A DNA stretch of 64,000 nucleotides from Adineta ricciae (Eukaryota > Rotifera > Eurotatoria > Adinetida > Adinetidae), in assembly GCA_905250025.1 (NCBI GenBank), contig CAJNOJ010000021.1, forward strand, positions 62,001 through 126,000, written 5' to 3'. Below are positions 46,483 to 64,000 of the stretch, piece after piece. How positions within the stretch are numbered: position 1 is the first letter of the stretch; every line of letters starts with the position of its first letter. The notes under the pieces are model-generated. The model saw nothing but the letters and a program-made list of their open reading frames with translations. It was not told the origin of the DNA and did no database searches. A program made the position numbers and the translations under genes.

Positions 46483-49348
46483 TTAAATCATATATTGTAA
46501 CAAATTTGTGTGAGTATGTTCCAAATGATGTTCTGAGGATAGTTTTTCTTGTGCTAAGTACGCTTGAAAGAGATTATGAGCCAATGCTGCAATTGTCACG
46601 GGTCCAACAGCACCAACAGGTGGTGTGATGAGAATACATTTGTCGCGAACAGAGTCCATGTGCACATCACCACGTATGTGTGGTGGATCGTGACTAACTC
46701 CAGCATCGACAATGACCAATGGTCGGTTTTCGGGAAGGAGATCACCATGAATGAGATGTGCCGAACCTGTTGCTGTGATGATGATATCAGCGTGACTGAA
46801 AGCTTCGCGAAGATCTTGTGTATGTATTGAACAAATCGTCACTGTAGCACCACGAGCCTTACAGAGAAGACTAACTGGTTCTCCTGTTTCAAGAAAGGAA
46901 TGTCAATGTTCGTTTATCTTGCTTTAAAATAATATACGTACCAACTAGTTTTGAAGAGCCAACAACAACGACATTCTTACCATTCAACTTAACATCATAC
47001 CAATCGAGTAGCCAAATGATGGCTTGAGCAGCACATGGAACAAACGATGAGTTCGGGTAGAGCAGACCATCAATATCTTTTTGTGGATGAATCAGTTTGA
47101 GTACACCACTTTGATATTGTTTCAAATGTTCAGGGAAAGGTAATTGAACAAGAATGCCATGAATATTTGGATCTGCATTCCATTCACGAATAACACGTTC
47201 TAATTTCAGTCCAAACAAATTATCATTTTCACCTGGTTGCAGTTGAACGATATGTGTTTTAAAATTAACTTTTTCTCGAAGATTTTTTTCCTTCATTCTC
47301 ACGTACAATTCACTTTCAGGTTTCGAGCCAGCTAATAAACATCCCAGAGCTGGTACATTTCTATCGTCTAAATAGATGAACATTGAGATTCCACTTTCCA
47401 TCGATACAAAGCTACCTACTCGGTTCGTATTTACTCTTGATTTCATTGTAGATATGTGCTGCGCATGCTTGGCCTTTCATCATAGTTGCTTGTTTGCTGC
47501 CAATTGAAAGTAAATGAAAAGGCGTTGTATTCGTAGGTACCTTTCGAACAAATTGGTAACGAGCACGAATGTATTCAAAAGAAGCGAAGTTATCATTCAT
47601 GATCTTGATTTCACGATGGCGACAAGCTTCCGGATGGCCAAATTTCGTGATGTTTTCTTGACGTTTATGCGCCTTCCATTTTAAATGTTCACTGAGATTA
47701 GGAAGAATATCATTCGTGATCTTCTCCTCCACTTCATTCCATGCTGAATACGTAAAATCAGCAAAACCTGAAGTTACTGCTTGTTGAGCATTCATTGGTT
47801 GCAGATGATTGACAAGTGAGTTCGCCTGTGCAACTGATCCAAGACGAGATGGTAAATTGAACGTCCAATATTCTGAACCAAATAATCCCATCGTTCTGTA
47901 ATGTGCATTGATAATTGAGTTTTCATGAATAAAGATAAAGTCACTTGCGAGAGACATCATTGCACCACCTGCTCCTGCATGTCCTCGTAAGACCGACACA
48001 ACAATTTTATCCGAAAGATCTATCATAAGATATCGAATTAGATCATTAATAGCATGAATATATTTTTGCGATTGTTCAACAGGATTGTCCGATGCTTCAA
48101 TTGTATTCAAATCAATTCCATTGGAAAAATATCGAAGGCTACCCAGGAGAACAACTACTTTCACACTAGCATTGATATTCTGCCTAATCGCTTGTTTTAA
48201 CCGATAACAGTGATCATCACGCATAGCTCCATTGTAGAAATCCCATTGAACATAACATACATCATCTTCTACATCCACATGAATATCTTCAAATGAGAGA
48301 TAGTTTTGTAAGAGAGCAGACGTCGACGGTAAGACTTGAGCTGCTGGTAGTTTGAATGGATTCTTCTTATCCAATGCGTTTTTCAAATGTGTTATCCATA
48401 GAGCACTGGTACTATCTGCACAGCTGATAAGGAAAGCATTTTTGTCTTTCGCCAGAATGGTTTTTGGAGGTGTGTGGATAGGTTTGTTCAATGGCTGAAC
48501 ATGGGCACCGAAGAGATACAACGGAATATTACAGATAGAATCGAGGAGACCTGGTTGAGAGTCACGAGACTGAATTTTACGTGCGATTGTACTCGCTGAA
48601 TCCGAAGACCAATCAATGGCGCAGTCACGTTGTTTCAGTGTATTTAATGGTAAACTTTTTAATGAAGCTAAAGAGAAACAGACAAGTGAGTTAAGTTTGT
48701 CTCTGTAAATGAATGGATGAACTGGTCATTACCTGGTTGTTCAACACCTGGATAATGTCCAAGGAAGATTTTATGATAAATTTCTCGTAATCCTTTCATT
48801 GCGAGTGTTGTCAAAATATTGTAAGCATCGCTCTTTGTTGCTGTTTGTGGTAAATGTTGTTCTGTATCAAGTTTTTCTTCCGCCCATACAGGTCCAGCGT
48901 CCATTTCCTCAACCGCTTCGAGTATTGTTACTCCCCATTCTTTCGGTCTTTCCAACACCCACCGATCGACTGAATGGCGACCGCGATCGCCTACTGGGCC
49001 AGGGTGGACGATCAATGTGATGTAATCGCGGTAGATTTGATTCGGAATTGTCCGAGTTAAAAATGGACAAATGATCAAATCAGGTTTATGCATTTGAACA
49101 CGCTCGACCAGTTTCTCGTTGGAATGCAACTCAACCATTACTCGACATTGAAGTGTGGAAGACAGAAGACATAAAGCCTTCTGTGACATCGTATTATGAC
49201 TTGTAACAATGAACAAGATGTCGAGCGATTGTCGACCATTCTTTATCTCACGTTCAAGTGTTGACCATGCTGAATGAACAAAGCGTTTCGAATAACAATT
49301 GCGAAATAGTCGCCAATTCAATAAACGAATAGCGTTACTCGCGTGCAT
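46483..49348 (-). CDS. HypX-FolD fusion: formyltransferase + enoyl-CoA-hydratase-like + methylene-THF dehydrogenase/cyclohydrolase
   Basis: Four exons (49348-48733, 48667-47435, 47367-46942, 46883-46483) total 2676 nt or 891 aa. The first 30 residues are Arg-rich without acidic residues, as in a mitochondrial presequence. Residues about 45-200 form a formyltransferase domain (IVHPGPVGDRG, EWGVTILEAVEEMDAGPVW); 215-270 a C-terminal formyltransferase-like part (RDCAIDWSSD); about 330-590 a crotonase-fold domain with the HypX-specific GHAGAGG, FGSEYWTFNLPSRLG and YQFVRKVP. From about 599 follows FolD: MMKGQACAAHIYNEIK, YVRMK with Tyr638 and Lys642, DPNIHGILVQLPFP, DIDGL, VVVVGSSKLVGEP and ITPPVGAVGPVT. 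The fusion joint lies inside exon 2, so splicing or misassembly cannot create it. Bacterial HypX makes CO from N10-formyl-THF via formyl-CoA for NiFe-hydrogenase assembly; FolD makes N10-formyl-THF. Activity and target in an animal are inference. Confidence 0.9.
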
Positions 49349-60358: not shown

Positions 60359-60478
60359 AAATAGGAAACATACAGTACACAAACAGACCAAACAATGAAT
60401 TTGAGAATTAGTCTAAGATTAAAAAAGAAACAAAGATTTTGACGCACACACACAATCATGCGCGCTTGGACGCATGAG

Positions 60479-63968
<3,490 letters not shown>

Positions 63969-64000
63969 CTACAAATGAAAATCATACCAGTTCAAGTTAT

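Follow-up and report, generated by a model that had tools for sequence, protein, structure and literature searches.

In the 64,000-nucleotide stretch of Adineta ricciae DNA analysed here (C21:62001-126000 of the 130.5-Mb assembly, hereafter the window), one minus-strand gene, with its ATG at 49348 and its stop at 46483, codes for a HypX protein fused to a FolD protein. With a rough probability of 0.62, we take the product to be a fused enzyme, probably mitochondrial, which would make carbon monoxide (CO) from methylene-tetrahydrofolate (methylene-THF), that is, from the folate one-carbon pool. Judged from sequence comparison, the rotifer gene belongs, as a fusion with FolD, to a broad HypX family of eukaryotes, which is little noticed and spread over animals, plants and protists. 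An earlier examination of the letters of this DNA (the sequence-only reading) had placed the gene correctly at 46483..49348 on this strand. The features on which the argument depends are the following.

46483..49348, minus strand: HypX-FolD fusion gene, 4 inferred exons, 896 amino acids
49348-48733, 48667-47420, 47367-46942 and 46883-46483, minus strand: the inferred exons
49226..49348, minus strand: residues 1-41, an N-terminal extension resembling a mitochondrial leader, its first 30 residues free of acidic ones
48733..49225, minus strand: formyl-transferase N domain, in exon 1, residues 42-205
49006-49004, 48988-48986 and 48901-48899, minus strand: H115, D121 and D150, corresponding to Aquifex H74, D80 and D109
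48668..48732, minus strand: intron 1, inferred, 65 bp, GT-AG
48375..48638, minus strand: formyl-transferase C domain, residues 216-303
47511..48311, minus strand: predicted crotonase-fold decarbonylase domain, about residues 325-591
47900-47898 and 47873-47871, minus strand: Y462 and E471, corresponding to Aquifex Y416 and E426
46534..47492, minus strand: FolD domain, residues 598-880, split by introns 2 and 3
47368..47419, minus strand: intron 2, inferred, 52 bp, GT-AG, inside the FolD part
47305-47303 and 47293-47291, minus strand: Y643 and K647, which with Q696 and D721 are the FolD active-site residues
46884..46941, minus strand: intron 3, inferred, 58 bp, GT-AG

In the profile search which had been proposed as a check, the Pfam domains Formyl_trans_N, Formyl_trans_C, ECH_1 (crotonase), THF_DHG_CYH and THF_DHG_CYH_C were all found above their own cut-offs. 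Residues 1-603 matched Aquifex HypX with 304.9 bits over 42-591 (phmmer), while the best hydratase match to the same residues reached only 33.2 bits. The AlphaFold model of the A. ricciae database protein P0002 aligned 539 residues to HypX, and with this full-length match the HypX architecture is indeed complete, as had been claimed. Five catalytic residues have been proposed for bacterial HypX (Aquifex H74, D80, D109, Y416 and E426; excerpts of PMC6802093), and all of them are kept in the window protein. H115, D121 and D150 correspond to the modified triad of HypX/HoxX, and the crotonase part retains, as Y462 and E471, the HypX Tyr and Glu tied to decarbonylation. The CoA-binding S194, Q195 and N306 of the Aquifex enzyme are kept as S242, Q243 and N351, and Q15 is kept too. 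Unlike the rotifer protein, the HypX of Aquifex aeolicus (6J0P) and that of Cupriavidus necator have neither a FolD fusion nor a leader-like extension.

Both the catalytic and the NAD(P)-binding domain of FolD are present, and 272 residues of the P0002 model align. Since the Tyr/Lys pair could be located as Y643/K647 and the GxVGP motif as GAVGP, the description of this part as a complete FolD was also borne out. We take Y643, K647, Q696 and D721 to have catalytic roles. NADP-using FolDs presumably carry, as a rule, Arg at the GRS position, where the window protein has Ser; the use of NAD by the fused FolD is our guess. No NCBIfam FolD cut-off was reached by the 25 models shown of the 70 matched, which were mostly narrow equivalog models (189.9 vs 437). 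The protein search of the assembly returned two complete HypX-FolD copies and, at two more places, FolD alone; no further HypX reached E 0.001. Two other FolD genes were classified by eye, C16 as MTHFD1 and C29 as MTHFD2-like; FTHFS-like exons were likewise read by eye beside MTHFD1 in L115. The fused FolD is thus the third of the rotifer, and differs by its Ser from the usual Arg of GRS in FolD, MTHFD1 and MTHFD2.

The 896-residue model is favoured because P0002 has the same length (97% identity) and because all three introns keep their GT and AG in the second genomic copy. The 891-residue product of the sequence-only reading is open in frame as well, by an alternative intron 2 donor at 47434 (GTAAAT, 67 bp), but the other donor is preferred; further GT/GC-AG pairs at intron 2 also keep the frame open. 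The junction between crotonase and FolD had been said to lie inside one exon, and it was found within exon 2, the FolD part then spanning introns 2 and 3. The inferred introns, the 738-kb contig and the two copies agree with the earlier statement that the gene belongs to the animal's own genome; together with the fused relatives, they ruled out contamination or an artefact. It is very improbable that two adjacent genes, or a contaminant contig, were read as one. Although about 28.4 kb separate the copies, which lie in repeated DNA and could be two haplotypes joined by the assembler, the junction within exon 2 contains no stop, introns are present, and fused proteins occur in A. vaga, A. steineri, Rotaria, Didymodactylos and transcript-like entries of other eukaryotes. 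An ORC-like open frame also lies about 1.6 kb from the gene, its ORC_WH_C match being sub-threshold (26.1 bits, cut-off 26.4).

Comparison of the two A. ricciae copies gave a Ks of 0.146 and a Ka/Ks of 0.106 for the whole gene, with 0.066 for the formyltransferase, 0.125 for the crotonase and 0.043 for the FolD part. The gene is under purifying selection, and neither enzyme half is decaying. Two frame-keeping copies with such a Ka/Ks put the observation of the fusion far beyond chance. The direct repeat was compared in two stretches only: window 31945-35576 matches 60359-63997 at an offset of 28414 (95.2% identity), and window 43575-52154 matches C21:134004-142500 (93-94% identity). A cation-ATPase piece and the HypX-FolD gene lie within the repeat, which reflects either a genuine tandem duplication or the joining of two haplotypes during assembly. 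Other open frames of the window resemble Galactosyl_T, EamA and cation ATPase.

FolD makes 10-formyl-THF from methylene-THF. By analogy with bacterial HypX and FolD, we infer each step of the reaction as follows. The FolD part would oxidise 5,10-methylene-THF and then hydrolyse the product to 10-formyl-THF, the HypX N-terminal part would pass the formyl group to tightly bound coenzyme A (CoA), and the crotonase part would cleave formyl-CoA into CO and CoA; the net reaction would be methylene-THF + NAD(P)+ -> THF + CO. A hand-over of 10-formyl-THF between the halves is suggested by the fusion alone.

A role in the maturation of NiFe-hydrogenase does not fit the rotifer host. As the sequence-only reading had assumed of the animal, the assembly gave 0 matches to NiFe-hydrogenase (PF00374), and likewise 0 to HypD (PF01924), in searches that were positive in 5 and 4, respectively, of 14 control genomes. 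This separates the rotifer from the hydrogenase-maturation setting of HypX/HoxX. That no hydrogenase to take the CO was found in the assembly would also suit one-carbon disposal. In that case the protein would yield formyl-CoA or formate, its crotonase part would hydrolyse formyl-CoA or hand it on, and CO would be a by-product at best. To reach formyl-CoA from methylene-THF, nothing beyond the formyl-transferase and FolD parts would be needed, and Ka/Ks is higher in the crotonase part than in the other two enzyme domains. We nevertheless regard disposal as unlikely, since the two residues linked to CO formation in bacterial HypX, Tyr and Glu, are conserved in 95 of the 96 sequences of the clade described below, the remaining one having a gap. 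Production of CO is the reading we prefer.

The rotifer HypX-FolD is probably mitochondrial, as its leader-like N-terminus and those of its relatives suggest. In all 13 bdelloid, copepod, placozoan, amphioxus, cnidarian and tardigrade proteins examined, 25-95 residues precede the HypX start, and their first 30 residues contain 4-7 basic and 0-2 acidic ones. The extension was absent (0 residues) from 4 of 4 bacterial HypX proteins. In the model of copy 2, a helix was predicted with low confidence at residues 2-17.

In the first protein search 7998 candidates were scored, and HypX and FolD Pfam domains occurred together in 25 of the best 120 of 1805 matches; 12 of these fusions were of the Chloroflexota type and 13 were not, five of the latter belonging to Adineta, Rotaria or Didymodactylos. 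A second search with seven standalone HypX queries (best 120 of 7932 matches listed) gave at least 5 further fusions, including Rotaria socialis and a GFUD transcript (P0313). GFUD denotes the transcriptome of the copepod Neocalanus flemingeri, according to an excerpt of PMC6105596. Judged by their names, P0009, P0063, P0259 and P0313 are transcript-derived entries with fused open frames. The search for the same fusion elsewhere, which had been recommended, therefore found it in other bdelloids, a copepod and further eukaryote entries. HypX was present, among the matches listed, in the animals Bradysia, Hypsibius, Trichoplax, Branchiostoma, Oculina, Montipora and Nematostella, and outside animals in Calypogeia, Ceratodon, Chara and Plasmodiophora. 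Contamination is unlikely for the entries of Trichoplax, Branchiostoma, Oculina, Montipora and Nematostella, whose contigs measure 8 to 53 Mb. The standalone eukaryotic proteins, often labelled 'hydrogenase maturation factor HoxX-like', share the clade and the catalytic residues of the fusion and in many cases its leader-like N-terminus, but not the FolD part. No description of HypX in animals or other eukaryotes was found among the open-licence papers listed, which were covered by titles and abstract starts (subscription papers and preprints were outside the scope); the phrase 'hydrogenase maturation factor HoxX' gave no match there, and PMC2216082 names HypX solely in a reference.

Two types of HypX-FolD, with about 37% identity, occur in bdelloids: P0002 and P0003 of A. 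ricciae and A. vaga, and P0005, P0007, P0011 and P0286 of A. steineri, Rotaria and Didymodactylos. The A. steineri fusion thus groups with other genera, away from its own genus. Either an old duplication with differential loss or a transfer would account for the two types. P0066 and about 10 near relatives form a tight standalone HypX group around Bradysia coprophila, near a few other sequences and away from the cnidarian-amphioxus group; here a transfer between eukaryotes is possible.

In order to place the window protein, 219 HypX sequences were analysed with FastTree, and it fell into a 96-member clade with a support of 1.0. The clade holds all 22 entries named as eukaryotes and none of the 18 named as bacteria, as well as 6 of 6 transcriptome entries checked and some metagenome entries with automatic names only. 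Amphioxus, corals, Trichoplax, a tardigrade, a fungus gnat, a moss and Chara are among its members, and 19 of the 96, including those of bdelloids and the copepod, are fused to FolD. The earlier phrase 'in an animal' hence understates the distribution, as standalone HypX of several animal phyla belongs to the clade. An IQ-TREE analysis was made with 67 chosen rows, 35 of them from the 96-member clade (21 with a eukaryotic name or EukProt source, 14 included on their FastTree placement). The eukaryotic clade was supported by 100/99, the nearest rows to the window protein were eukaryotic, and the Chloroflexota fusions formed a group elsewhere in the tree (100/100).

A single fusion origin shared with bacteria was rejected, since one clade of all 19 fused rows gave p 3.4e-7 in the approximately unbiased (AU) test. 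One clade of the 14 eukaryotic fusions was not rejected (AU p 0.198), and neither was a single bdelloid clade, for which the held tree was 2.9 log units better (p 0.555). When the window type was held outside the other eukaryotes, the log-likelihood was 11.4 lower and the arrangement was not rejected (AU p 0.296), the branch being long; this value speaks against placing it firmly. The 67-row tree did not resolve which bacteria are sister to the eukaryotic HypX clade. The FolD tree was built by a quick method from 63 rows, long branches being flagged, and its standalone FolDs were 32 taken at random from 119 listed matches and 4 from PDB. In this tree the eukaryotic fused FolDs need one change, with a support of only 72, and those of Chloroflexota are separate (100). 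Since the Chloroflexota and eukaryotic groups are separate in both the HypX and the FolD trees, the fusion arose at least twice.

The sequence-only reading had considered bacterial transfer, with introns gained afterwards, as the likeliest origin. As a recent event in bdelloids, possibly with the bacterial chemistry kept, we find it improbable. Many transferred genes are known from bdelloids, both HypX and FolD occur widely in bacteria, and the window type on its long branch could stand outside the other eukaryotes without rejection. However, the nearest rows are eukaryotic, the composition of the clade (22/22 and 0/18) speaks against a rotifer event, and the bacterial fusions are a different lineage by the AU test. 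Moreover, among the 80 prokaryotic HypX loci kept of 117 confirmed, L001 from a Chloroflexota metagenome-assembled genome (MAG) was the only one to cover the whole fusion, and the rotifer assembly lacks matches to NiFe-hydrogenase and HypD. The distribution may go back to an early transfer from bacteria into eukaryotes, or to transfers among eukaryotes.

The Chloroflexota HypX-FolD (L001; P0010-P0025 type) has the same domain order as the rotifer fusion and an independent origin, and its member P0013 lacks an N-terminal extension, unlike the rotifer protein. A NiFe hydrogenase is present in the MAG with the fusion (one genome tested). L001 lies on a 4-kb contig, where a dehydrogenase-like piece upstream and no hyp genes were seen by eye. 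A NiFe large-subunit match was found, with one query protein, in the flanks (up to 10 kb) of 28 of the 80 loci kept. PF00374 was over the cut-off in 16 of 24 chosen bacterial HypX genomes, some of them MAGs, and not in the other 8; some of the matches may be complex I subunits. There is a hint here of a bacterial HypX role outside hydrogenase maturation. Independence of hydrogenase may then not be special to eukaryotes, nor hydrogenase maturation define the family. Genomes without a NiFe-hydrogenase over the cut-off included those of the Lysobacter isolates L003, L004 and L012 (one with a sub-threshold match), the Lysobacter MAG L009, Paenibacillus (L002) and Nocardia cyriacigeorgica (L017).

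The idea that FolD feeds HypX is strengthened by this independent fusion in a MAG with NiFe hydrogenase. The same fusion opens the list of observations that weigh against the proposed enzyme: the catalytic Lys of its FolD is Ile in 12 of 12 rows (P0010, P0012-P0016, P0018, P0019, P0021, P0022, P0024 and P0025). A fused FolD need not, therefore, be an active cyclohydrolase, and that of Chloroflexota may have dehydrogenase activity alone or serve as a partner without catalysis. Tyr and Gln are lost from the FolD of P0063, and Tyr is replaced by Phe in P0006 and P0259. In the HypX part, R131, a CoA-diphosphate contact which is Arg in 110 of 120 homologs, is a gap in the window protein, and R9 and R542 are also replaced, but likewise in most homologs; an R9/Q15/R131/R542 variant of Aquifex HypX was still able to bind CoA (excerpts of PMC6802093). 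The first 41 residues have a Ka/Ks of 0.369, that is, weak constraint over few sites. The proteins of Bradysia, Calypogeia and Plasmodiophora have short or acidic N-termini, which indicates that a mitochondrial location is not general. Lastly, the 0 matches to heme oxygenase (PF01126) in the rotifer assembly come from one exon-wise search whose controls were all prokaryotes, 3 of 14 being positive. The sensitivity of this search was fair, since it recovered HNOB, FolD and formyltransferase exons.

The established source of CO in animals is heme oxygenase. Nothing relevant on it in bdelloids was found among the open-licence papers listed. Beside the lack of a heme-oxygenase match, the heme-sensor domain PF07700 (HNOB) gave 22 exon-level matches in the rotifer assembly. 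The predicted CO would most likely serve as a signal acting on heme sensors or on respiration; disposal of one-carbon overflow is the alternative. Two separate fusions of FolD to HypX suggest that 10-formyl-THF supply is important for the synthesis of CO.

A wider proposal, to which we give somewhat less than an even chance, is that HypX is a eukaryotic CO synthase, patchily kept and often mitochondrial, which would make CO from folate one-carbon units without heme oxygenase. It would be fused to FolD in bdelloids, copepods and several protists, would provide CO for heme sensors in animals without heme oxygenase, and would be the enzyme behind the CO of siphonophore floats. This CO is said to derive from serine and to be blocked by a folate antagonist, and to our knowledge the enzyme making it is not known. 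HypX chemistry could supply it; the cnidarians named in the clade, Nematostella, Oculina and Montipora, are corals or anemones. Gas-gland cells of Physalia secrete CO, and the reference list of the same source contains, by its title, a 1962 paper on folate derivatives in the Physalia gas gland (excerpts of PMC6820529). If the proposal is true, animals would have a second, folate-dependent source of CO with its own substrate and compartment, and the old puzzle of the siphonophore float CO would have a candidate gene.
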